From Brachypterus glaber (Eukaryota; Arthropoda; Insecta; Coleoptera; Kateretidae): a DNA stretch of 64,000 bases. Both the position numbers and the translations under genes were made by a program. The stretch is taken from assembly GCA_958510825.1 (NCBI GenBank), contig OY294047.1:49769365-49833364 (forward strand), given 5' to 3'. The notes beneath the pieces were generated by a model that saw only the letters and a program-made list of their open reading frames with translations, had not been told where the DNA came from and ran no database searches. This document shows, piece by piece, positions 3,827 to 61,281 of this stretch (position 1 is the stretch's first letter; the number at the start of each line of letters is the position of its first letter).

Positions 3827-4590
3827 TACACCTGCGAGGCATTTCCACACAAGCTCCGTGGGTGGCATTACCCAGTATACGGTGGAATTCCGTGCAAATA
3901 TATCTTTTTTTTTTAATATAAAATAACTTTATTTTAACTGGTTGACAGTAATTGGAATAACATAAGATTAAAATATATATGTAAAATTTTACTAAAGATT
4001 AAACTAAATTAATATCTAATGTATTAAAGATGTGATTTTTGATCTTGTTGGTAGAATAATATGTATGCTTCACCTGATACCATCGATCTTAGTGAAATTG
4101 AAGATACTCTAGAGTCGTTGTATTCGTGCCACGTATGATTATAGGGATGTTTACAATAGGCGGTGTAGTGTCCGCTATACGTGGTACCACTGTGATTTGA
4201 AATGGCGTATAATTGTATAATTGTATTTGTATCTTTTCAGTTTTCCTTTTTTTTTATATACATATATTTATTAATAATACTTCTTCGTGCGATAAAATTA
4301 TAGTAAACATATGTCAAATTCATTATATTATTATTAAGTAATATTACCTATATTGCATTTATATATTTTTATCAAGAAATTTCCTTAGGGGCACACCATT
4401 CTCATTCCCCTAATCGTTTTTTTAATCTAGGTAAAAATACTTCTTTTTTTATACTTGCGTAGAGTTTAATAAGTAATACTGATCACCCATAGAACAACAA
4501 ACATCCTCAACATTAATTTTACTTTAAAAAGGATTTATTTTAACTACAGGGGTTGTTATTGAAGACACCCTGTCGATGGTGACGTTTTGA
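3827..4590. other. Upstream region of the neuropeptide gene, no gene seen
   Basis: No coding region or repeat is recognised here. The stretch is the 5' flank of the pyrokinin gene and would be expected to carry its neuroendocrine enhancer sequences, but no specific binding sites can be supported. Confidence 0.4.
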
Positions 4591-4598
4591 GATTACGA

Positions 4599-4640
4599 TA
4601 TAAAAAGCAGAATTCCTCCCAGAAAGATCATTCAGTCAAA
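4599..4640 (+). promoter_or_regulatory. Candidate core promoter: TATA box and initiator of the pyrokinin gene
   Basis: TATAAAA at 4599-4605 is followed by TCATTC at 4628-4633, an arthropod initiator match whose A (4630) lies 31 nt from the first T of the TATA box. This would give a leader of only about 11 nt before the ATG at 4641. The alternative is that ATTCAG (ending 4635) is a 3' splice site of an exon whose 5' leader lies further upstream. Confidence 0.45.
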
Positions 4641-5114
4641 ATGTCCCGGTTCGTCGAAGTATATTGTGTTTTCGTGATTGTGCTAGCGTTAATTTTGGAA
4701 AATGTGCTATCAGCACCGCAGTTCGAGAACGCTGTCGATGAAAAACGGGGCGAAAATGATAAACTATCTTCAGCTTTGTGGTTCGGACCTAGATTAGGCA
4801 GGAAGAAGCGTAATAACAACAACCCTGTGGAGGAAGCTTACAGAAATGAACTCGACCATGAAAGGTATGTGAATTTAATGGAAAGTCTTCAGGATACACC
4901 TTGGGCGATAGTAGCTATTGGAGATGGTAAAAGACATATTTCCAGTTTTACTCCAAGATTAGGAAGGGAATCGGGAGAAGACGTCGTTGTCAGTGACATG
5001 TGGGGTCCAGATATGGAAAGAGCGTATATGCCGATAATTCCAAGATTGGGGCGAGGTCTTGGGAGAAGTATGCCATTTATTCCAAGATTGGGAAGAGAAA
5101 TTGAGAAGGCTTAG
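4641..5114 (+). CDS. Pyrokinin/PBAN-type (FXPRLamide) neuropeptide precursor
   Basis: 157-residue secreted prohormone in one open exon. An ATG 54 nt further upstream is in frame, but the start at 4641 gives a clean signal peptide: residues 1-25 have a hydrophobic core VFVIVLALI and predicted cleavage after VLSA. Dibasic and Gly-Arg sites release, in order, GENDKLSSALWFGPRL-amide (37-52, a WFGPRL tryptopyrokinin-type end), a 41-residue acidic spacer, HISSFTPRL-amide (99-107), a longer peptide ending AYMPIIPRL-amide (110-136, with a monobasic site before AYM), and SMPFIPRL-amide (143-150). A stray GLGR at 139-142 looks like an eroded repeat. PRL-amide peptides act on pyrokinin G-protein-coupled receptors in muscle, gland and diapause or pheromone control. 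No PRV-amide (CAPA-PVK) peptide is present, so this is the pk/hugin-type rather than the capa gene. The IIPRL copy lacks the canonical Phe. Confidence 0.93.
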   Translation: MSRFVEVYCVFVIVLALILENVLSAPQFENAVDEKRGENDKLSSALWFGPRLGRKKRNNNNPVEEAYRNELDHERYVNLMESLQDTPWAIVAIGDGKRHISSFTPRLGRESGEDVVVSDMWGPDMERAYMPIIPRLGRGLGRSMPFIPRLGREIEKA

Positions 5115-9096: not shown

Positions 9097-9868
9097 CCCT
9101 AACATCCCTACTCCATAACATCCCTACTCCATAACATCCCTACTCCACAACAACTCTACTCCGTAACATCTCTACTCCATAACATCTCTGCTCCGTAACA
9201 ACTCTACTCCACACTATATGCACTTTATTAGCCACTTAATAATAAATGAGCAGTTCAAAGAACAAAGAATCTTCTTCTTCTAGATTATTTTATTTTTTTC
9301 CTAGAAAACGTTTATCTTTAAATGTAAATCTAGAACAATCATAAATGAATTATTCTAAAAGCAACAATGACCGCGTACTCTTAACATGCACTAATATGTA
9401 AGTAATTAATAAACTCAATTCATTTTTGACAGTGACTTAGCATGACAAATATTCTTTTGAGTTAAGACAAGTGGCTAATCGAGTGTCTATAGTGTGGAGT
9501 AGAGTTGTTACGGAGTAGAGATGTTATGGAGTAGAGATGTTACGGAGTAGAGTTGTTGTGGAGTAGGGATGTTATGGAGTAGGGATGTTAGGGAGTAGAG
9601 AAATTTAGAGTAGAGATGTTAGTCTGCCAAAAAATCTTCATAAAAGAAATACTATTCTTTAGAAAAACACTTTAAAATTTAAAGTACATATAGAATAGGT
9701 GTATACTTTGACACACTGATCTGTGACTACGGAAAATATGTGAAGAATGTGTGTGCAAGTGAGACGCCCGTTGCAGGCACGCACGCCTTATAACGCTTTT
9801 GACGGAAAGAAGTGGGCGCGCATGATACCTCCCCCTTTCGTCGGAGACTTTGTGTCATGTGGAGAACT

Positions 9869-12177
9869 ATAGATAGATAGATAGATAGATATATTTATTT
9901 ACCAATATAACATGATACATATGAGTACACAGAGTAGGTACCTAGACTATATAAACTTAGTCATGTTACAAGATACGTCTAAAAGAATAATAATTTAAGA
10001 ATAAATAGTTTAAACTATATAATAATGCATCATACATTAATATACATCACAATTAAAATAAGGTTTTAAGTTTGTATTTTTGCATATTATCATATTAACA
10101 CTAAACAAAACGTACATCCTCAGCTGAGTACGGTACCAGTTCAATTAGGTAATTTTTTAGTGTGGTTTTAAAATGATTTTTACTACTAATGCTTAAAATT
10201 GTACGTGGTAGTTTATTATAGAATGTTATACCTTTATTATAGCAGTTATCTCTACTTACATTTATCCTAGAAAATGGCTGATATATGTTTTCTTTTTTTC
10301 TTGTCTCGTACCTGTGAATGTCCTCATTTTTTTTTCAGTTCCATATTTTTTTCCCTAACCAGCATAATTAGGTTAAACATATATAGGGCAGGCACGGTTA
10401 AGATTCTAAATTTTTTAAATAACGGTTTGCATGATTCTCTACTAGGACATCCCACGATACATCTTAGTATTTTCTTTTGTAGTATGAGAATTTTGTCTAC
10501 ATCTGTTGCAGAGCCCCAATGTACGATACCGTAGTTAATTATGGATTGTACAATACCATAGTACATAGTAATCAGTACGTCATTTGATACCGAATTCTTT
10601 ATTTGTCTAAACAAAAAATAGGCGGAGCTTAGCTTATTACACAAATACTCTATTTGAGGCGACCAGGTGAATTTTTGATCTAGATACAACCCTAAAAATT
10701 TTGTACATTTTTGTTGACATATAGAGTTATTGTTTATTTTTAAATATAGGCTACTATTTATGGAAGTATTTTTTGTACAGAAGTGTATAAAACATGTTTT
10801 TGAGCTGTTTATCTGGAGGCCATTGTTTTTGCACCAAGAATGCATTTCGTTTATGGCAGTTTGTGCCAAATTTCGGGTGGCATCCAAGTTGGAATCTGCC
10901 ACCATCATTTTTGTGTCGTCTGCAAATATTAGTGTTTTGCCTTTTTTATTGCAGTTTTGCGTCAAATCATTAATAAAACACAAAAATAATAGCGGCGATA
11001 GGATTCCTCCCTGGGGTGTCCCTACATTTGAGCTGTTCAAATTTGAGCTGTGCTGACCGATAACAACTTTTTGCTGCCTATTGGACAAAAATGATTTGAT
11101 CCACATATTAGAGACTCCTCGAACGCCCATCGAATCTATCTTGTCCAATAAACGATCATGAGGTACAAGATCGAAGGCTTTCGTTTGGTCAAAATAGATT
11201 CCAATGATTTTAAGTTTTTTATTTAAACATTCTTGGATATAAGAGATTCCATCATTTAGAGCAGTGAAGGTTGACCTTTTTTTTCGAAAACCGTGCTGGG
11301 CGGGGGTTATTAGATTATTTATTTCTAAAAAGTCGTAAAGTCTTACAAAAAAGGCATATTCCACTATCTTACTGAAGTGACTTTGGACCGAAATTGGCCT
11401 ATAGTTGGAAATATCCTTCCTTGAGCCTTTATTTTTAAATATTGGGCATACCTTTGACTGCTTTAAAGATGTAGGAAATACACCCTCTCTGAAGGATTGA
11501 TTTATTATAAGGGAAAGTGGTTCACTTATTATATCACATACTTCTTTTATTACTTTACCAGGTATTTCATCTAGACCGCTTGATTGCTTTTTACACACCT
11601 TTTTTATTATAATTTCGATTTCAGAGGGGGTTGTGGGTGCTAGAAATAATGAGTTTTTAATACTACTTTTATGTGTTATGTTTTTTGACTCAGATACTGC
11701 GTTTAGTCCTATATTTATAAAGTGTTCGTTAAACAGGTTACATATAATCGTAGGATCAGTAATTATTTTATTCTCTTTCTCTAGCTCTATTTTATTATTT
11801 CTATTTTTGTTTTGGTTTATTATTTTCCAGCTTTCCTTAGATATGTTCTCCGCATTTATTAAACGTTTATCATTATATGTGCGCCTAGCGTTGTTAATTT
11901 GTATTTTACATTTGTTTTTTAATTTTATTAATTTATTATGATATAGTTCACTTTCAATGTGATTATCTAGTGATGCCATCTCAGATAACAAATTTAAATT
12001 TTCTGTTAGATTTTTATTAATCCAAGGAAGCTTTTTTTGTTGCTGAATTTTAATTTTATTTATGGGAAAGCAGTTATTAAAAATAGTGGTAAATTTTGAA
12101 TAAAATAAATTGAAATTATTATCAGTGGTGTCATTATTATTAAATTCCCATTCAGAATTTTTTACTGCTATAAATCA
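9869..12177 (-). mobile_element. 5'-truncated non-LTR retrotransposon (CR1/jockey-like)
   Basis: The element runs on the minus strand from a truncation near 12177 to a microsatellite 3' tail of TCTA units at 9869-9892 (seen as AGATAGAT on the plus strand), preceded by a 3' UTR of about 200 bp. Tails of short tandem units rather than poly(A) are usual for CR1- and I-type LINEs. The endonuclease domain and ORF1 are missing. No clear target-site duplication is visible. Confidence 0.85.
10101..12174 (-). pseudogene. LINE ORF2 reverse transcriptase, frameshifted
   Basis: The frame is open from 12174 with no start codon (5' truncation); from the first Met (11991) 555 residues follow. Reverse transcriptase motifs appear in order: NYRPISV (196-202), HGFRKKRSTF (233-242), IYFDQTKAFD (265-274, catalytic Asp), GTPQGGILSPLLF (324-336), FADDT (356-360, catalytic Asp pair), KFLGLYLD (431-438) and an INYGIVHWGS thumb/connection segment (485-494). 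The frame stops at 10324-10326 right after a run of nine A on the coding strand. One base fewer would continue for about 75 residues to a TAG at 10101, with the usual LINE C-terminal features (TFYNKLPRTI). The single indel in a homopolymer may be a real mutation or an assembly error. Confidence 0.85.
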
Positions 12178-25299: not shown

Positions 25300-26330
25300 T
25301 TTACACATTTGATTTATTTTTTTTTTCATCCCTTTTTATGTTGCATATTTTTTTGTTTTTATTCAGTACACGGAAAAGAAAAAATTTGATGTCCCAAGAT
25401 TTTCCCTTTGACTCATATAATGTTATTATAACTATTTTCTCAGGTTAAAAACAAATAAAAACAGACAGGATTTAAGTGAAACTTAATTAAATTTCGCAAG
25501 AATGAACTTTGAAAAATTTAATTGCTTTTCCACTTTGCAATAATATAGCCCAAAATAGAATTGAATTCAATACGTGTTTGTTTGTCTCATTATATTGCCT
25601 ATTATTATGGTAAAGGGATACTTGAGCTTAGTCCTTTTGTGCATAGACACTAAGGCCTTATAAGGGGTCTTTTAAAGGACTCGTTATAATGTTACAACAT
25701 AAGTATAATAGTACTATACTACTATAATAATAATAATGATAATAATAATATTAATAATACTATATAAAAATATAAAAAAATTGAGTTCTTGGCACTGGTG
25801 CCCAAACACAATTTATACTTACCAGTTTACACTGTGAAAAAAAAAATATTACTATATAATAATGCTATACTGTATTTTTGGACCATTTCCTTTTGTTTTT
25901 TTCTTTTTAGCTTTATCGGGTTCTTTTTCTGGCAGCACCATTATCAGAAATTTATTAAAAGAAAAATTAATTCAAATTAATTTTACCTATGATTGAAATT
26001 TTACTACTGTCAAAATTTGAGTTCTAATTAAAAATGTAAAAACATTTATTAAAATGATTATATATGTTTTTGTAGGGAATTAAATATTATTTTCATTAAT
26101 AAATTGTCCTAGTATAAATAATACATGATATATAGCTAAAAATAATAGTTATTTTGCTCCCTTGCCCTACGCTATTGTTAACCATATTTGATGTGGCCCA
26201 AAAAGGTTCTGAATCGTTTGGTAAAAGATCAAAACGGACATTTCTTTAAAAAGTTATAAGGTTTACATACAGACGGACAGACAGACAGTCATTTTATGAC
26301 AGCCATTCTTTTCACATTTTCACATTTTCC
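25300..26330. other. AT-rich spacer
   Basis: No gene is seen. Short ATT/TAA microsatellite patches lie near 25720-25760, and a GACGGACAGACAGACAG tract near 26272 resembles tracts inside other repeats. Confidence 0.45.
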
Positions 26331-26955
26331 CGCCAGGTGAATTTTTGATATGTTTAGTGTTTTATAATAGGTAGTTGTTTAAAGGCTATTTGGCACCGAT
26401 TCAGATAGTACCCGGTGGCCAAATTTGAACTTATACGAAAATTTTGCAATTTTTTAAAATATTTTTCATTTTGTCACCTCTCTAGCTGGGGCTAGGTTAA
26501 ATCCCGCCAGGTGAATTTTTGATATGTTTAGTGTTTTATAATAGTTAGTTGTTTAAAGGGTATTTGGCACCGATTCAAATAGTACCCCGTGGCCAAATTT
26601 GAACTTATAAGAAAATTTTGCAATTTTTTAAAATATTTTTCATTTTGTCACCTCTCTAGCTGGGGCTAGGTTAAATCCCGCCAGGTTAATTTTTGATATG
26701 TTTAGTGTTTTATATTAGGTAGTTGTTTAAAGGGTATTTGGCACCGATTCAGATAGTACCCGGTGACCAAATTTGAACTTATACGAAAGTTTTGCAATTT
26801 TTTTTAATATTTTTTATTTTGTCGCCTCTCTAGCTGGGGCTAGGTTAAATCCCGCCAGGTGAATTTTTGATATGTTTAGTGTTTTATAATAGGTAGTTGT
26901 TTAAAGGGTATTTGGCACCGATTCAGATAGTACCCGGTGACCAAATTTTAACTTT
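26331..26955. repeat. 174-bp satellite, 3.6 copies
   Basis: Units start CGCCAGGTGAATTTTTGATA at 26331, 26505 and 26853 (CGCCAGGTTAATTTTTGATA at 26679), a strict 174-bp period with more than 90% identity by eye. Internal landmarks are TATTTGGCACCGATTCA, AGTACCCGGTGGCC and CACCTCTCTAGCTGGGGCTA. The last unit stops after about 100 bp. No ORF crosses a unit. Confidence 0.95.
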
Positions 26956-37369: not shown

Positions 37370-37649
37370 CATAGAAGCAACTTGGCAACCGGTGAAATTT
37401 AAATAGAAACTATTTTAAAATGCAAATGGACAGCTAAATTGTCACATAAAATACATAAAGTATGAGGCGATAAAATATGAAGTGATAAACTTTTTGGTGA
37501 TTGGTTTTACGTGTGCATGAATGTCTATCGATTAAATTAGCAACATCCTCACAGCAAGGTCGAAAAAAAATTGTTTTTGACTGCAAATGTTATTTTATTA
37601 TACAAGATGATTTAGAAATAGGGTACAAAAGTTTGAAGACTGATAGAAC

Positions 37650-38475
37650 TTTCTTGGTGTCCTAAAAGTCAACTGCATCAGCTACGCCGATGATATGGTC
37701 CTTCTTTGCCCCTCACTTCAAGGTCTACGTATGCTTATAAAAATATGTGAAGACTTTGCCAAATCACGTTCTCTTAAATACAATAGTAATAAGAGTAAAG
37801 TTTTAGTATTCAAGTCCACAAATTATAGAGACCTCTATGTTCCTCCTGTTTATTTAAATAACTCTGCTGTTGAACGCGTGTTCGAAATCAAATACCTAGG
37901 TCACGTTATCAATGATATGCTAAGTGACAACTCTGACATTCAGCGTCACAAGAAAAACCTTTGTGCCCGCGCAAACATGTTAGCTAGAAAATTCTCTAAG
38001 TGCTCTGTCGAGGTTAAGAACTCTCTTTTCAGGACATTTTGTTCTAACGCTTACTGTGGTGAAATTTGGCTTGATCATACGGTGGCCTCGTGGCGAACTC
38101 TTCGCGTATGCTATAATGATGCATATCGCATTATCCATAGACTACCGCGCTATAGTAGTGCCTCGGAAATGTTTGCCTCTGCCCGAATAGATACCCTGGA
38201 TGCTCTGAGACGCAAGTTGCTCGCCTCTTTTGTGAAGCGGCTACTCTCCAGTCCTAATGTTTTCCTAAAAGCGTTTGTATCTTCGGACTGCTTTTGGGTT
38301 TCTGCACAAATCGCCACTTGGCGTCGCCTTTGTTTCTTACAAGTGACCTAATCATTTTATTTATTTATAAATTATAATTATTTTGTTTTGCTTTATTTTT
38401 ATTTTTAATCATTTTATTATTTTGTAGTATATGGCCATTGTGCTGTAATAAAATTATTATTATTATTATTACTAA
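37650..38475 (+). mobile_element. LINE 3' fragment with ATT tail
   Basis: A 5'-truncated non-LTR element that starts just before the RT YADD box, runs through a 110-bp 3' UTR and ends in AATAAAATTATTATT repeats (38448-38472). It differs from the 9869 element in both RT sequence and tail, so it belongs to another LINE family. Confidence 0.75.
37683..38351 (+). pseudogene. Reverse transcriptase C-terminal fragment
   Basis: The frame opens with YADDMVLLCPS (the YADD at 37683-37694 holds the catalytic Asp pair), then LKYNSNKSKVLVF, the IKYLGHVINDMLSDN palm-end block, RANMLARKFSKCS and a thumb/connection region WRTLRVCYNDAYRIIHRLPR. Motifs A and B, the endonuclease and ORF1 are absent, so it cannot act. 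The reading frame is otherwise unbroken over about 220 codons, suggesting a fairly recent insertion. Confidence 0.8.
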
Positions 38476-42927: not shown

Positions 42928-43707
42928 TAACTCACTATCTGAAATATATTTATTTATTTTAGATCGTAGAAAAAATGTTGTTTGTATTACGAGCGCAAAA
43001 TGTATTTCTGCTTTCGCGTGATTGCTGATCTCGTCAAATGTATACTTGTTACACATTTTTATACGAATGTACATTACGTTACGTAATGTTTAATGTAAAA
43101 TAAATTTTTGTCTAGTTGTTTATTTAATCAATAATGTTTTGTTTAATCTACGTGAATTCTTACTTTATTTTAACAAAAATTAAAATAGAATGATATAATT
43201 GAAGATGCTTAGTAGTAAAGTACAGTAAAATAAGGCTTAGTATTCTAGGGTTAAAGCTAGTTATTTGTTTTTTTTTTTACTAGATTAACTTTTTTTTTAT
43301 TAGAAAAAGGTGAAATGGTTTCTGTAATTGAAAGCTTACACTAACAGTATGGTAAAAACCACCTTTTCAAAATGTGCCGTTTTATAAACAGAGTAGTTTA
43401 GTGTGAAGATTGCAGCCATTGATCACGGCATCGAAGGCCAAATAGTGTTAATAATTTAAGACACGAACGAAACTAGGAAATTGGAGAAAAAAGTAGCTTT
43501 TAGTTAAAGGCCAGGAGGTGTGTCGAAAAAAATGTTCATCAAAGTATCAACAAAATATATTCTGGTCAGATTTTAAGGCTTTGGACTTTTTGTGTATTCC
43601 AGGATATTTATTCCAGATTTTCCGAAAACCGTCGAAAATAAAAAAAAAATATTAACGTTTTTCTCCTGGAAAGGTTTAAATTCAGCAAAAACATATTAAT
43701 TATTATT

Positions 43708-43956
43708 GGTGGCAATGGCTTAGTGGCTAGTGCATCAGAATGACGAGCCGACAAGCGTGAGTTCGATTCTCACTGGCACCGATTTGCCTGTTTCAGTTAA
43801 TTAATAATTGAAATTCGGCGAAGGCTGTAAAGTAAAGCGGACACTCCCTAGAAACTGGTTCCCTCTATTACTAGCCCACACAAGTCCTGGACTTAGGGGA
43901 TGCTTAATTAAGTAGAATAGTACGAGGTTAAACAAACATGTAATGTAATGTAATTA
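43708..43956 (+). mobile_element. tRNA-derived SINE, copy 3 (best preserved)
   Basis: The head reads like a tRNA: start GGTGGCA, A box TGGCTTAGTGGCTAG, B box GTGAGTTCGATTCTCAC and a TGGCACC acceptor-like end. The body TTAATTAATAATTGAAATTC, GTAAAGCGGACACTCCCTAG, ACACAAGTCCTGGACTTAGG and GATGCTTAATTAAGTAGAAT leads to a tail of TGTAA units. It would be transcribed by RNA polymerase III and mobilised by a LINE partner. Confidence 0.88.
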
Positions 43957-50141: not shown

Positions 50142-53100
50142 TTACCAGGAGTGAGCATAACCAGGTGCACTAGCATAACTATAAGCACCCACTGGACCAG
50201 CAGCGTAAGTGTGAGCAAGAGCTGGGGAGGCATATTGAACTGTGTATTGAGCTGGGGCTACAGCTACAGTTTTGGTGGAGTAGGCAGATAAAACCGGGGT
50301 GGCTACAGCATGAAGTGGAGTAGCAATAGCACGAGCTTCTACTACTGGAGCAGCTACAACTGGAGCAACAGCATGAGCTAGGGGTTCTTTAGAAACCACT
50401 GCGTTAAATCCATTTACAGCATCCGCTGCATAGTTTACGGTACGTTTTGTTCCATCGGAATCAATCAGAGAGTAACTTCCTTGGACAGAGTCTCCACGAC
50501 GAGACTCGTGAGCGGATTTGTGGTCTCCGGTGAGGGGGTCAGAAACGCCGTATCCATAATCATAGGCAGCTGGAGCTTCAGCTACTATTGTTTTAGTGAC
50601 TATTGGATCAGCTGCGTAGGCGATGGGAGCAGCATGGGTGTAGGCTGATACTACTGGAGCTACTACACCGTGGGAGGTGTAAGTGGATACTCCTGGAGCA
50701 ATAAATCCAGCACGAGCTACAGCTACGAACGTGGCGAAAGCGACAAACTAAAAAAAATCGTTAATAAATAATGATAAACAGAATGCTTCATTTATCATGG
50801 CAATCCTTAATATTTAAATAACTGGTAAATATATCAAAAAAGTTAGTAAAGCCTAATGGAAGCACAAAATGGTGTACATTTTTTTTAGGGAGCACAATGG
50901 AGGAATAAAGGAGGTCTTGTAGTATAATATTGTAAAGCTCGTAAAATTTTCAATTTTTTATTATTTTTATTTTTTTATTTGAGGGGGTCAAAAAGTGTTG
51001 AAAATGGGAAATTTTGTTTATTTTTTTTTTAATAAATAATTTTTGTTTGATGAATAATTTATTGATTCAAAACGTAAATTATACTTTTAAACTAATTTTA
51101 AATGATATAAACAAAAAATTCAAATAAAAATCTAACACAATAGTTTTTTAACAAAAAAATTAAAAATTTAACACCTTCAATTTAGTTTTTTTTTTTAATT
51201 ACAAATTATTTGGCCAAAAAGAAAACCTAATAAGCTTGTCATTAAAAAGATGTCCCGCCTTACGCCCTGCCTCCCTAAAGATATCAAATATAAAGTGGAG
51301 TGGGGTAAGTGTAATATCGGGATAAGTGTAACCACCGTAATTTTTTTCTTGTTCAATAAAAAATGTGTTTTTAGCAATATTACAGTATATTTAAGGTTTT
51401 CCATACTAATTAATGTTTTTTTAGGAGGTATAAGCAGAAATAAATAACTTTTCTTCTTGCATACGTTTTAACTAAAATATCAAGTGAGGCCTTTACTTTT
51501 ATTGATTTTTTATAAGCGTTATTGTAAGGGTTTATTTAAAATATTTTGTAACATAGTTTTTGACCAGAATTCCATATTTTAAATCAAAAATTGTCCAAGA
51601 CCAAGCCTTAAAATTTGAAATTACTGCTTACGCTTGCCCCTCCTAAATTCATAGAAGGGGCAAGTGTAACTGGTGGTCCTGGAGTAGTGTAACTGCGTTT
51701 TTAAATAACTTGAGTAAAGGTTTTTTATAGGATTTTTAGTTTAGTTTAGTTTAGTGTAGGTTTTCTATAGGTTTTCTTTTGTTTCAGATTTTAAATTGAA
51801 GTGAAATGGTATTATCTACAATAGAGTTTAAATCTGTTTTGCTATGAGAGATAAAAATATGATTTTTTTATGAAAGCTAAATTCTTGGACTGTTACACTT
51901 GCCTTCGTAACATACACCAAGTTTTTATATGTCCGAGGCCAGCCGTGGTTACATTTGCCCCAAACGGCGGGGAAAGTGTAACCACACGACGTGGTATAAA
52001 ATTACTCAAAAACTTGTCACTACTGTTTTTCTAAACCCCCAGGTTACCTAAAAAAAATTAAAAAAAATAAGTACTGCCCTGCTAATCACGACTAATTTTT
52101 AAAAACGAACTAAGCATTTATGCCGTTACACTTACCCTACTCCACCTTACACCATTTTCTGCTCAAATTAAGCTCTTATAACACCGGCACACAAAAAAAA
52201 AAAATTGTCTGTACACCGGGCGCCACCTATCTACGGGCATGTTTTTCGACCCGCTGAATACGAATTTCAAGTCAGTTTAGGCCGTCCAGCTTTCAATTTC
52301 GAGTAAAAAATTTTTTTTCTTGCCAAAACATCGAATTTTCGCTATTTTTTGGGTTTTTTTGCAATTTACTCGAAATTGAAGGCTGGACGGCCTAAACTGA
52401 CTTGAAATTCGTATTCAGCGGGTCGAAAAACATGCCCGTAGATAGGTGGCGCCCGGTGTACAGACAATTATTTTTTTTGTGTGCCGGTGTAATTAGTGTT
52501 TAAAATTTTTCGGTTGTTATGATAAATGGACTACCCTGTACACAACTAAATAAAACAACAATTACTCAAGATCTTGATTTCTTAACCCTTTGTTGCCTGA
52601 CTAATCAAAAATACGATTACATCACAATTTTTTTTGCTCCAAGTGAATTTGCATACATTAATTTTTTGAGATTTTTTTGGAAAAGCTTTCCAAAAAATTT
52701 TGAGGAGTACGTTGAAGAAAGTAGGCAAATTAAAGCAGTCGGTCCATCCCCTTAGAAAAAAACAAGTATTTTTGTAGGTTTATGAACGTCCCACAGGTGA
52801 ATACCAATGCCTTACTTGCCAAAAACTTCACATAAGTATATAAAAAAAAATATATATCAAAAAAAATCAAACCAATTCACTATAAAAACGCCAACTATCA
52901 CTGCACGACTATAAAAATCATGATATTGTGTTGTATAGTGTTGCCCTTTTGCTGTGAATAGGTTATATCAACTACTCAAAGAGGACTTGAGAGTACCGGT
53001 CTGCTATAAGAAGCTTTCAAGGTAATAGGGAATTTATATGATTTAACAAAAAACCGGTACTTCAGAGTACCGTCTCTCAACAAAGGGTTAAACTTTTAAC

Positions 53101-56205: not shown

Positions 56206-58307
56206 TAATTTTCTCATATCATTCTTCTAATGCATATTCTAAAAAATATCTGTTAATAATGTTCTTAAAAATTATGCTATGCATATTTTAAGAATGTTCT
56301 AATGGTTTTATTTAAATTTGTCGCTGTTCTGCAATACATTTTTGACATGTTGGAGTTGTAATTCTACAGTAGCCGATAAAAAATTATACATTTAATTGTT
56401 TTTGGTAATTCCAATCGTGTATTATTTGATTATAATTATAGACCTAAGTCTAGTGATTGGTGTAAGCTATGTAAGATTGTATAGTAAGCATAGAAAGGCA
56501 TGTACCTGTATACAAACAAATTAATGCACGAAAATGTTAATATTCCTAAATTTTAAATGTTTTCTATAATTATATAATAGTTTAAGACATTGTTTTGTAC
56601 TACACAGTGTCATTATTACACATGTCACTATTCTGTTTATTGAATACTTTAGATTTGACACATCATAAATTAGGTTAGATACTTTTGCAAGTTATAAGAA
56701 GATGCTGGGCATATTCTGCAAGATTTTTTTAGAATGATCATAGAGCTTTCGTATAATTAAAACGGTATCCATTGAATGTCTTAAAACCTTCTAAGAACGT
56801 TCTACGTAAAACATCGCATATTCTTAGAATCATACAACATTCCCAATATTTATTTTAAGAATATTCTTAGAACTGTTTTGTGCTATGCGGGTTTAAAGTG
56901 CGAGAAGCCGTTTGAAATTATATTCCACGTACATTTTGCCATGGGCTCTAGAAAAATAACATAGTTGTTTTTTTTATTTATACTATATCTTTTGCTGTTT
57001 TCCGAAATAAATGGTTCTTTCTGGACCACTGTTTTATGTGTTGGAGGTGTTTTTACTGTTCTATTTCATAACCTATATATTTAAAGAAAATTCTGGATGT
57101 TTCAAATTTTATTCCTTATTGATCGGATCAATATTCTGGTCACTTTAATACTTCTTTAATAAATTTAACCACTCAAAGTCCACAGTGAATGATGAAAGAA
57201 GACTTGACTTCCTAACGATCTCAACAAACTAAAGGTAAGTTCACGAGAAAAGGACCCTAGTCAGCCACAGTGTGACTGATTGCAATACCGAAACTGGTAT
57301 TACCGTAATACCGGTATTTTGGTTAAAAATATACCGTATTACCGATATGGCACACAATATCCCCCGGATATCCTCTCAATGTCCTATTAATGTCGCATTT
57401 CCCGGGACATTAGGCGTATATCCCAAGTATATCCCAAAAGGTATGTTCTGAGGATATACTGCACTAAGGTGCAGCTTGACAACATTGGAAAAAAGCTCCT
57501 TTTTTTAAATTGGACTGTTCTATTTGTCAGTGTAAGTACTTGGTGTAGAATTTTCTGGCAAGGCATCAAACATTTTTGTTTCAAAATGGGACCTTTTTTA
57601 TTGGACCCCACACTAATAGATAATTTAATTTAACATTTTCTCATTAGGAAAATATTCATTCTATCAAATTAAATTGACTTATATTGAGTTATATTATAGA
57701 ATAAGTTTTGATTTGGAAACTTAAAACTGTTAAAAATTACTTATAAACTAAAACTTTTTTCTTCTCAATTTTTTAAAAATATGTTTGTAGGTCGAAGAAA
57801 CTATTTTTTTTTATTTCACTAATGAATTATTATGATAGGGAGACCCGTAAATTGTGTCACTTAGTATGGCCTTTTTTATTTGTAATTTATTTGAAATCGT
57901 TTGATACCTTTACTTGCCACCAAGCGAATTAAATTTTCACAAATGGGCCCAAAATAGGTTTAAGGGGCCGTGTAGAAATTACATGAGGATTTTTGACCGC
58001 CGCCTTATTTAAGATTTTATATCATATGGTCCATATTTTTTTTTATTCATTCTATTTTCACACGTTTCGGATGTTTATATTTTATTTAAACTACCAGTTT
58101 CAAAAATATTGACCGTTATCATCAGGAGTTTAACTGAAACTCAAAAAATCTATAGTTTTTTAATGTGAATTCGGTAAAATAGTTCTGTATTAAATTTTAA
58201 AACAAATTTTGAGTCACCAACATTTCGGCTTTTTTATTTATACCAAGAACGTGCGTTTTTTGGAAGTAGGGTTTTTGGCATCTCGACCTGGTATTATTGA
58301 AGTAGAT
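56206..58307. other. Gene-free stretch
   Basis: No host gene is seen. Between 56220 and 56890 words such as ATTCTTAGAA and TTCTTAAAA recur in both orientations, and 57285-57345 has clustered ACCGGTAT/ATACCGTA words; neither shows element boundaries. Confidence 0.4.
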
Positions 58308-58344
58308 ATTTATTATTCCATCAATCTATTTTCTGATCATCGTA

Positions 58345-58409
58345 CAGAGTGATTGGTAGAATGACAGTTTCGGGCTGCTGACCCTCTTCAGTACCAAGAG
58401 TCAACTCTG
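58345..58409 (-). ncRNA. Type I hammerhead ribozyme, copy 1
   Basis: Minus-strand order: CAGAGT, internal loop, TTGGTA (stem I, 5' side), core CTGAAGA, stem II GGGTCAGCAGCCC, core GAAA, CTGTCAT in place of stem III, then TC and cleavage, TACCAA and ACTCTG (stem I, 3' side). Both stem I helices pair fully (6 + 6 bp) and both conserved core strands are intact. Stem II is reduced to three GC pairs plus a wobble. Stem III cannot pair (C opposite U), so cleavage is expected to be weak or absent. Predicted cut: between 58359 and 58358. Confidence 0.72.
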
Positions 58410-58783
58410 CACGCTGATTAAGAAAACGTTTTTAGACTTTATTCGCAAAAGGAATATAGTCATTATATTGATATAGACTTGTGCGCCATCTATTGCTAGA
58501 TGTAGATCTACTCATACTTCTCCTGGTCTAGAGACTTTGAATGGTAGCAAGTTGAAGACTTGTGCGTCTCAAGCACATATGATTAGTAAAGACTAAAATT
58601 TTTTATTTTAAACAAAATTATAAAAATATTAATTTATTATTTCATCAGTCTATTGTCTCAAGTACATAGTACCACTAACGTGTGGTTAGACGTAGAATTA
58701 GTAAGGACTAAATTTTTTATTTTTAAACAAAATTATAAAAATATTAATTTAATATTTCATCAGTTTATTTTCTAATAATCTTA

Positions 58784-58850
58784 CAGAGTGATATTGGTAG
58801 AGTGACAGTTTCGGGCTGCTAGCCCTCTTCAGTATCAAGAGTCAACTCTG
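58784..58850 (-). ncRNA. Type I hammerhead ribozyme, copy 2
   Basis: Same layout as copy 1. Core CTGAAGA and GAAA are intact, and stem II has five pairs (GGGCT, loop AGC, AGCCC), the best of the three. Inner stem I has one A-C mismatch (TTGATA with TACCAA); the outer CAGAGT/ACTCTG helix is perfect. The stem III segment CTGTCAC cannot pair. Predicted cut: between 58800 and 58799. Confidence 0.72.
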
Positions 58851-59137
58851 CAAGCTGATTAAGAAAACATTTTTAGACTTTATTCCTAAAAGGAATATAG
58901 TCATTAGATCGATGTAGACTTATTCGCCATCTATTGCTATATGTAGACATCCACTCATACCTCTCCTAGTCTGGAGACTTTGAATGGTAGCAAGTTAAAG
59001 ACTTGTGTGTCTCAAGCACATAGTACCACTAACGTGTGGTAAGACGTAGGATTAGTAAGGACTACAATTTTTAATTTTAAACAAAATATAAAAAATATTA
59101 ATTTATTATTTCATGAATCTATTTTCTAATCATCGTA

Positions 59138-59202
59138 CAGAGTCGTATTGGTAGACTGTCAGTTTCGGGCTGCTGGCTCTATTCAGTACCAAATCAACTC
59201 TA
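59138..59202 (-). ncRNA. Type I hammerhead ribozyme, copy 3
   Basis: This copy keeps the tiny stem III that the others lost: after GAAA, CTGACAG forms two pairs (CU with AG) closed by a GAC loop, directly followed by the TC cleavage dinucleotide and TACCAA, which pairs with TTGGTA over six bases. However, the core reads CTGAATA, with the invariant G8 changed to U, and stem II is weakened (GAGCC/GCCC), so it is probably inactive. The outer helix has one G-U. Predicted cut: between 59154 and 59153. Confidence 0.72.
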
Positions 59203-61281
59203 TGTTTTAAAGTAATTCTAGTAAATAAGGTAAAGTAACTCTAGAAAATAAATAGGTAATAATTTTTGTTATTTATCTAATCTGAAGATTACATGTAAAA
59301 TTCAAAAAATGTTAATAATTAATTATTAATTTATTGCATATTTACGATAATAAAATACATAAAATATATTTCATACAATTCCTTTACTTCAATGCCAAAT
59401 TTTTAACATACTGCTCGATTAATTATAATTATTATTAAAATTAAATCCCACACTGAAAAAATGAACCAAGTCCATTTCAATTTCTAAAGGTCTAAATTTT
59501 AATAATTTTTTAAATATTTAACTATGATTAAAAGTTAAAAAATCCTATCCTCATTACTGACCTCCTTAGTTAAACCGTCCTAACTAATTTTTCGAATAAA
59601 TGGCTAAATTCCTTGACTTCAACGATTTAATTTCAATTTTCCTTTTCCATGACTTCCCTGGTTTTTCCTGACTGGTGGGAACCCTGAAGAATAGATAAAT
59701 ATGGCGTAGAACAACCGGTATATGCAGATAAATGTCGCAAATGACAAAAAAGTTAGTTATGTCCAAATTAAGGAGGGCAGATTAGGACTCATATCGTCCC
59801 TAATACTGCCATACCGCGTATCGTCATTTGACAGAAATCATGTTTATTCAATTAGAATGACGCATGACTAATTTACTAAGATATAAGGAAAATTCTCACA
59901 AAAATAATCCTTCACATAGTAGCTCATTTATTCCTAGATAGATTTCGATAAATAACCTTAGGGTCATAGGTTTTTAAATACTAAAACCTAAAAAACCTAA
60001 GATTGTAAACTTATATTGAAAATTAAACTTAAAATGACGATAAACTAAGTATTTTTAATTTTTGGATTTAAATCGTTTTTTCCGTACTGCACCTATCATG
60101 AATAAAAAATGCTTCCAGCCATTAGAGGAACTATCTTTCTGCATCATTAAAATAATTATATCAAATTTATTTATATTCATATTCATTAATAATAATAATG
60201 GCTAATAAATTAATATAAAAAATGATAGGCACTTAAATACCTATCTTTAATTACGACAGTGATTAAATTATTTTAAATGTTATAAAATGATTGGATCAAA
60301 ATGTCGAAGAGGTACAAAAAGTAAACAAAACGACAAAAAAGGTTAATTTTTCGAAAACAAAAAAAATATTGAACGTTTCTATTTAAAGTTATTTGCCTAT
60401 TTTGCCCCCTAGAACGTTGAATTATGAAACTTACATTTCAAATTTAAGATCATTAGCACAAAGCGTTTTGGAGAAAACAGTGCATAGTTGAAAACGGTTT
60501 CGAGAATTTTATGTCATATGAATGTAGTGAATGTTATAATTTGGCCAATAACACAATTAAGTTACCTTTAATTTACAAATATAAGATTTTTTTCAGTATT
60601 ACTTTTTTTAACTTTTTTTAAAATATTTAAATGGATATCTCCGGTACCGCTTATCCGATTTTAAAAATTAAAAATAAATTTAAATCAAAATAAAAATACC
60701 TTTCAAATAATGCATCACATGACTCATATTGCTATTTAAGATTTCAAAGTTGGGGTTTCTGGGGATTAGGGGGCGAGTTTTAGAACCTTACCGATTACAT
60801 AAATAAAAAGCTTACTGAAAATGTCTAATTGACCTACTTTTTAGATTTTTGATATCTCTTACAGTTTTCAAGATAATGCCTGTAGGAAAGTTAATGGGAC
60901 ACCCTGCATATCAACAGGGATAAACCCAGAAAAAGGGGGCCCTATGCCAATATGATATTAAAGGGTATGTAATCTTATTTTTTTTCATAATTTTACATAA
61001 AAATATACCCATCTCGGAGGGGGGAACGTCCCCACCACCCCACTTTGCATTTACCCTGTATAGTGCAGTGGATTTGGCCCCGTTTAACCCTTTATTCTCG
61101 TGCGTATTATTGCAGTAATTCATAGGTCTGTTTATTATAAACTTTGAAACAATGAGTTCCTTCCGATTCTATTTAACAAAAACTAAGAACGAAAGTAATT
61201 TGATTGGTTGTTTTTAGAACTTCATGAATTATTTATTTATTTTTTTTTATTTGCAAGTAAAAATTTATATTTTTGGCAATA
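59203..61281. other. Gene-free stretch
   Basis: AT-rich with no supported gene. The GGGACACCCTGCATATC at about 60897 looks like the end of a TA-type element whose other end I could not place. Confidence 0.4.

Follow-up and report, generated by a model that had tools for sequence, protein, structure and literature searches.

Introduction

In several phyla, animal retrozymes give rise to small circular RNAs in large amounts (PMC7229834). As set out in the available portions of that source (Cervera and de la Pena 2020), metazoan non-LTR retrozymes carry a type I hammerhead in low-GC tandem monomers of 170-400 nt, have no LTRs, occur in many copies per genome and are associated with short target site duplications which, when present, exceed 4 bp. 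Hammerhead repeats have also been published from insects, in cave crickets (PMC2837043), in mosquito and in 'insects' (PMC7229834), and both the retrozyme class and insect hammerhead repeats are already known. The pDo500 satellite of Dolichopoda cave crickets is an insect tandem repeat with an embedded hammerhead (PMC2837043, in part). In the portions of PMC4918200 consulted, the plant LTR retrozymes are likewise non-autonomous, with hammerheads in repeats and proposed RNA circles; their hammerheads are of type III, and they have LTRs, a PBS, a PPT and 4-bp duplications.

The second group of relevance is that of the Penelope-like elements (PLEs), whose protein cuts and extends both DNA strands, with reverse transcription starting at two adjacent internal RNA sites (PMC11167929, Frangieh and others, here and below from the portions available). 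The two starts explain the optional 30-40 bp PLE 'tail', called unique to PLEs in that source, and from its numbers we calculate that one published start lies about 85-92 nt past the hammerhead cut. Type I hammerheads and tandem arrays are features of PLEs as well (PMC11167929), and the accessible part of PMC3846280 describes inverted pLTRs with the tail on one of them, duplications of 8-10 bp and in-trans transposition of foreign sequence placed between pLTRs. PLEs have been put forward as a strong candidate for the mobilisation of retrozymes (PMC7229834), and a review of December 2024, in the part cited, still names LINEs or PLEs as the helper (PMC11722881).

The repeat described here comes from the beetle Brachypterus glaber and is represented by a decayed array in the stretch of DNA that was analysed, 64,000 nt in length and hereafter called the window. 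A preliminary description of the window had likened this repeat to metazoan retrozymes and to hammerhead satellites such as that of cave crickets, and its placement with the retrozymes is supported: the 354-nt monomer, the GC content of 35.7%, the tandem arrays and the type I hammerhead all fit the published kind, as do the lack of LTRs, the short target duplications (8-15 bp in 21 of 31 beetle arrays) and the many copies per genome (PMC7229834, portions compared). The beetle repeat differs from those retrozymes in being a new sequence family and, by the descriptions compared, in having paired, fixed 3′ ends and head-to-head halves. From pDo500 it is distinguished by sequence and host (PMC2837043), and from the plant LTR retrozymes by its type I hammerhead and its 8-15 bp duplications (PMC4918200), as far as these are covered by the sources consulted. 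As in PLEs, going by the portions used of PMC11167929 and PMC3846280, its 3′ ends lie at two sites past the hammerhead, copies occur inverted, a short end is combined with a long one, and target duplications are short; unlike PLEs, it has no reverse transcriptase or nuclease, its hammerhead is of canonical size, and its two sites lie ~46 nt apart rather than the 30-40 of PMC11167929. No earlier report of such a paired-end signature in a retrozyme was found in the literature searched, which covers subscription papers thinly.

Results

A decayed hammerhead array in the window

Self-comparison of the window, together with alignment to 354-nt monomers from the genome, defined the array and its parts as follows.

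58308..59201 (894 nt), minus strand: putative retrozyme array of ~2.5 monomers, decayed
59137..59201, minus strand: hammerhead copy C, at the 5′ array edge; GUC site and stem III (ACT/AGT) kept, G8 gone, stem II weak
58783..58852, minus strand: hammerhead copy A; core kept, a single mismatch in stem I, stem III without its middle pair
58343..58411, minus strand: hammerhead copy B; core kept, as is the inner part of stem I; stem III without its middle pair
58800..59153, minus strand: monomer of 354 nt, from the C cut to the A cut; predicted circle stabler than shuffles (z -3.9, 100 shuffles)
58359..58799, minus strand: monomer of 441 nt, from the A cut to the B cut, with an internal duplication (z -2.9, 100 shuffles)
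58575..58773, minus strand: internal duplication by self-comparison, two neighbouring copies (58575-58658 and 58690-58773)
58308..58312, minus strand: 3′ edge of the array, at site a (see below), 51 nt past the B cut, B being 2 nt shorter here

On the minus strand, where the array reads from 59201 to 58308, the hammerheads follow in the order C, A, B, with cleavage-to-cleavage spacings of 354 nt (C-A) and 441 nt (A-B), the extra length of the second unit being an internal duplication of ~115 nt. The preliminary description had seen in all three the full hammerhead plan. The parts do occur in the order described, and the internal loop within stem I and the stem II loop are present, but every copy is defective in its own way: A and B keep the core and have a damaged stem III, whereas C has lost G8. 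Since each copy is differently defective, the locus is, to judge by its sequence, a broken and decayed relic of the retrozyme family. The pairings CAGAGT/ACTCTG and TTGGTA/TACCAA, reported for all copies, hold with two exceptions: in A, TACCAA faces TTGATA, which leaves an A.C mismatch, and in C the repeat does not include the T of TAGAGT; because the copies are homologous, these pairings do not count as independent evidence.

With gaps left out, 39 of 347 aligned positions are different between C and A, namely 9 of 65 positions in the hammerhead and 30 of 282 in the remainder; between B and A, the counts are 4 of 68 for the hammerhead and 15 of 146 upstream. Neither among the window copies nor among the genomic arrays compared was the hammerhead consistently more conserved than the remaining monomer. 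Self-comparison revealed no inverted piece in the window array, and its flanking sequences share no repeat beyond chance level, since 530 of 5000 random pairs did as well. No ORF of at least 70 aa (nor of at least 110 aa) overlaps the array. An ORF for reverse transcriptase and GIY-YIG is absent from it, and the 354-nt unit is too short for one; as the repeat has no reverse transcriptase or nuclease ORF, we do not class it as a PLE.

For the window array alone, B and C might together form one complete hammerhead, B supplying its catalytic half and C its substrate half, and this hammerhead is predicted to be able to cut the GUC of C. This fold was obtained by unconstrained cofolding of B and C. 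When the array was folded, its joint probability at 37 °C was 0.25, and none of the other eight core-site pairings exceeded 0.0008; across 16 flank settings it came to 0.02-0.36. Set against this, the value fell to 0.041 when folding was done at 25 °C and to 0.005 when ~300 nt of flank were included on either side, the loop exceeds 700 nt, a length at which folding is unreliable, and the fold model has no loop-loop contacts. We treat such a composite ribozyme as a tentative and rather doubtful proposal.

Descriptor and covariance-model searches

When applied to the 64-kb window, a strict type I descriptor matched A and B only, and it gave no match in 100 dinucleotide shuffles. For covariance-model searching, which the preliminary description had proposed with the Rfam hammerhead models, we also used an independent model (R1), trained on 31 type I hammerheads of phages that had been picked from a viral contig scan. 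With its filters off, R1 scored A at 19.3 bits (E 0.0056), B at 17.2 bits (E 0.025) and C at 14.2 bits (E 0.21) in the 64 kb, ranking them first to third of 23 matches; the fourth had 12.7 bits (E 0.6). The window hammerheads are thus weak by R1 score, yet top-ranked, and C, taken alone, is not significant. With the shuffles and this ranking, the earlier judgement that coincidence is unlikely stands. On 25 phage loci outside the training set, R1 gave 28 matches at 24-63 bits and two at 15.5-16.7 bits, the range of B and C in the window; these two are probably due to chance.

Rfam itself gave no support. At the gathering cut-off it had no match in the whole window, at E up to 10 it found no hammerhead in 57000-60500 or in 58330-58410, and at E up to 1 it listed none in three genomic arrays with intact copies inside (L140, L148 and L149), whose microRNA-family matches we discounted as probable inverted repeats or stretches of low complexity. 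As a control, the gathering cut-off was applied to 10 phage loci and gave 0 matches, although five of them (L010, L043, L054, L073 and L078) hold structure-checked type I hammerheads; in evalue mode, RF00163 reached 25-30 bits on L043, against a cut-off of 34. Because clear type I hammerheads of phages fail the same cut-off, the silence of Rfam carries little weight. By the descriptor and by R1, the hammerhead observation at 58308-59201 is confirmed at the level of sequence.

Exact-pattern scans returned no relative in viral contigs and none in prokaryote genomes. The strict type I hammerhead pattern itself occurred in at least 120 viral contig stretches, where 91 of 137 matches were structure-checked; the Rfam gathering cut-off misses those tested.

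A family of hammerhead arrays in the beetle genome

A search of the 648-Mb genome with the window array yielded at least 166 matches (40 of 3036 candidates scored). Our sample, which is not random, comprises the 35 best-matching arrays besides the window among the matches listed, and these occupy separate places on 10 contigs. They contain 209 hammerheads by the anchor used (208 by a slightly different one), and 164 of the 209 are intact in core, stems I-III and cleavage site together, where intact means CUGANGA, GAAA, a UH site, at least 5/6 pairs in stem I, at least three pairs in stem II and 3/3 in stem III, an internal shift being counted as failure. The preliminary description had made its reading depend on a model hit above threshold or a related genomic copy in which G8, stem II and stem III are restored together, and such copies are common here.

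The commonest form, TTGGTA CTGAAGA GGGCCAGCAGCCC GAAA ACTGTCAGT C TACCAA, is present in 83 copies and scores 28.4 bits under R1 (E ~3e-6). At default filters R1 found 30 matches in 12 array loci that hold 86 hammerheads by anchor, the filters having lost this commonest form; when they were switched off for seven of the 12 loci, 56 of 58 matches were hammerheads, at 17.6-31.3 bits (57 hammerheads by anchor).

Full monomers measure 354 nt in 116 of 160 cases, with a GC content of 35.7%. Median divergence is 0.85% within arrays compared with 2.3% between them, the nearest or tied relative lies inside the monomer's own array for 136 of 160, and internal divergence is zero in L140 (one pair) and L148 (three pairs). 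Such homogeneity within arrays fits the copying of one RNA circle for several rounds; it also fits unequal exchange or an uncleaved multimeric transcript. The largest array seen (L152) has at least 25 hammerheads in 9 kb. Taken together, these comparisons support an unnamed beetle non-LTR retrozyme family with the window array as a decayed member, and within the databases and genomes searched the family appears to be new by sequence.

Two single arrays deserve mention. One long array (L153) has intact hammerheads in 4 of 15 cases. In another (L151:2174-2816), two monomers have ~118-120 nt extra near position 46-49, the region that is duplicated in the second monomer of the window.

Paired 3′ ends of the retrozyme insertions

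Counting monomer positions from the hammerhead cleavage site, we mapped the ends of the 31 arrays with both boundaries, having excluded four (L129, L132, L141 and L152) in which the stretch ended inside the array. The 3′ ends gather at two places, site a at ~+52 (...GGAATAATAAA) and site b at ~+98, mostly +97 to +103 (...TCTGTCCTTA(C)). Zones of 48-65 and 86-106, drawn after the ends had been inspected, take in 58 of 65 3′ ends against 5 of 61 5′ ends, and a zone-free measure, circular concentration, was 0.83 for 3′ ends against 0.26 for 5′ ends. Six of the 5′ ends lay at position 1, and we rejected these as traces of cleavage, since a rotated query shows that most of those examined continue past the cut site; they are still counted among the 61 and are at least partly query-edge artefacts. 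A further 5 of the 61 lie at position 286-287, possibly a preferred stop of the reverse transcriptase.

Two-ended insertions, with 3′ ends pointing outward on both sides and a head-to-head joint inside, make up 22 of the 31 arrays, the other nine being one-ended; across arrays, 23 joints are head-to-head and 0 tail-to-tail. Among the 22, one end falls in each zone in 18, both ends lie in the b zone in one, and one end lies elsewhere in three. If ends were chosen independently, at least 18 mixed pairs in 19 would arise with P 3e-5. Exact flanking repeats of 8-15 letters exceeded 95% of 500 cross-locus controls in 21 of the 31 arrays, and some of these strings include 1-3 letters belonging to the end of the element. 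The array ends listed show neither a poly-A nor a simple-repeat tail.

These ends bear on two other readings of the family. If it were plain satellite DNA, spread by unequal exchange and with a hammerhead that has no role in mobility, internally homogeneous arrays of up to at least 25 hammerheads in 9 kb (L152) would be expected, as would a hammerhead not clearly better conserved than the remaining monomer; the dispersal of 35 arrays over 10 contigs, the flanking repeats in 21 of 31, and 3′ ends that are fixed while 5′ ends vary make this explanation improbable. We give a little more room, though still not much, to movement by LINE (non-LTR) machinery, with the inversions arising from L1-like twin priming, for LINE-type reverse transcriptase frames are present in the window and the 8-15 bp flanking repeats and variable 5′ ends fit LINE target priming too. 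L1 twin priming should leave an inverted part whose outer end is internal and variable in position. Both outer ends of the retrozyme insertions instead lie at set 3′ sites, one of each in 18 of 22, like the 5 of 5 in the resident PLE (below), and the ends listed are without poly-A or simple-repeat tail. LINEs are among the possible helpers listed in the part of PMC11722881 cited.

A resident Penelope-like element with paired ends

A search of the same genome for the GIY-YIG domain gave at least 31 matches (150 of 419 candidates scored), and one locus (L189) encodes RVT_1 and GIY-YIG in one frame. Measured from the conserved hammerhead-like GAAAC-TA-GTC, the 3′ ends of the resident PLE lie at +50 to +63 (10 ends) and at ~+86 to +88 (8 ends), which puts the two sites at roughly +55 and +87. 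With longer queries the long ends fall at +86 to +92, with single values up to +102 where flanks match by chance; one odd row of that mapping, in L146, stands at +164. Five two-ended PLE insertions were recognised (L166, L183, L184, L185 and L188), and in all five there is one end of each kind, the halves meet head to head, and the flanks have strings of 10-18 nt in common. Two further loci, L170 and L190, have a common flank and may be one insertion. Two 3′ sites, inverted copies and a pairing of short with long end were thus found in 18 of 22 two-ended retrozyme insertions and in 5 of 5 of the resident PLE, the spacing between the two sites being ~46 nt in the former and ~32 nt in the latter.

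Retrozyme and PLE have this anatomy in common; clear sequence similarity is absent. When the monomer was compared with 30 GIY-YIG loci, the sole clear match was a 37-nt piece in L167. R1 found no hammerhead on 20 PLE loci, and the PLE motif reads TTGA(A/G)GA in 18 of 18 ends shown (PLE loci L166, L170 and L180-L190), where the canonical form is CTGANGA; from these letters, the hammerhead-like motif of the resident PLE may be inactive or protein-dependent. The string AAATTAAT occurs near site a in both retrozyme and PLE, which may be chance.

Type I hammerheads and tandem arrays are also found in PLEs (PMC11167929, in the portion available), and the end signature of the repeat is PLE-like, as would be expected if the repeat were not a retrozyme but a pLTR remnant, or had arisen from an autonomous PLE by internal deletion. 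We regard such an origin as highly improbable, given ~354-nt units without a coding part in 35 arrays, no clear match to the 30 GIY-YIG loci besides the 37 nt in L167, and a resident PLE whose motif is different and is missed by R1. The piece in L167 (positions 325-361) is diverged, resembles the retrozyme cut-site region and lies near a GIY-YIG fragment; it may be an old retrozyme relic or a part of the PLE.

A proposed route of mobilisation

The paired ends of the retrozyme correspond to the two-start 'tail' pattern of the PLE type, which is also seen in the PLE of the same genome, and this suggests that Penelope machinery probably mobilises and inserts the retrozyme. In light of these comparisons, we consider it likely that the window array goes back to an old insertion of a beetle non-LTR retrozyme and has since become inactive, and that RNA of the family, which has many hammerhead-intact copies elsewhere in the genome, is cut and circularised, with insertion by the PLE protein. 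Tandem arrays would be transcribed and the RNA cut by its type I hammerheads into 354-nt monomers, which a host ligase would close to circles, as proposed for animal retrozymes (PMC7229834, in part). The protein of the resident PLE, presumably the enzyme with reverse transcriptase and GIY-YIG domains, would bind this RNA downstream of the hammerhead, make a staggered cut in AT-rich DNA and use both cut strands to prime reverse transcription, with site a (~+52) serving one and site b (~+98) the other; what we observe of this step are the ends, the way they are paired and the flanking repeats. Each cDNA, which might comprise several rounds of the circle, would stop at a variable 5′ position, and the two would be joined head to head, leaving the joints seen in the arrays. 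The window copy would have one end of this kind, at site a, and would have decayed afterwards.

Self-cleavage and circular RNA are, for the beetle family, predicted from the hammerhead and the array structure. Head-to-head arrays are also compatible with an uncleaved multimer or with unequal exchange and are not proof of a circular template, and 4 of the 22 two-ended insertions speak against the proposed route in that they do not have one end per zone, as do the 9 of 31 arrays that are one-ended.

We extend the proposal, with somewhat less confidence though still as more probable than not, to animal retrozymes in general, which would be passengers of PLEs: the PLE protein would recognise circle RNA next to the hammerhead, make a staggered cut in an AT-rich target and, using both strands, begin rolling-circle reverse transcription at two fixed points of the circle, leaving head-to-head arrays with one short and one long end. 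If this is true, the hammerhead both makes the circle and marks the loading site of the PLE. The enzyme that returns retrozyme RNA to DNA has been a question of LINE or PLE, and a paired end signature common to a retrozyme and a PLE of the same genome provides direct genomic evidence on the copying enzyme and points to the RNA positions at which PLE initiation would be expected. Array ends mapped relative to the hammerhead cut give a simple criterion that can be applied to other species.

Other features of the window

Two reverse transcriptase frames (RVT_1) lie at 10324-12174 on the minus strand and 37647-38351 on the plus strand; no GIY-YIG domain was reported for either, and by our judgement of their sequence they appear LINE-like. 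The one tRNA that ARAGORN found in the window, a tRNA-Val at 43707-43782 on the plus strand, is far away from the array, and a tRNA origin of the repeat was set aside. An exon of a PBAN-type neuropeptide lies at 4563-5114 on the plus strand (gene 4656-5111), with 51% to Brassicogethes; the best seven named relatives are from beetles, followed by two moths. An RR-type cuticle protein at 50142-50747 on the minus strand has relatives in mixed insects. These two genes and the tRNA-Val fit an insect genome, probably that of a beetle. At 9108-9622, a 16-bp minisatellite forms two arms in inverted orientation, with seven units of TAACATCTCTACTCCA in one and eight of its reverse complement in the other, on either side of ~280 bp, in what looks like a fold-back element, and 26328-26954 holds a satellite-like tandem repeat of 174 bp in 3.6 copies with 95% matches.
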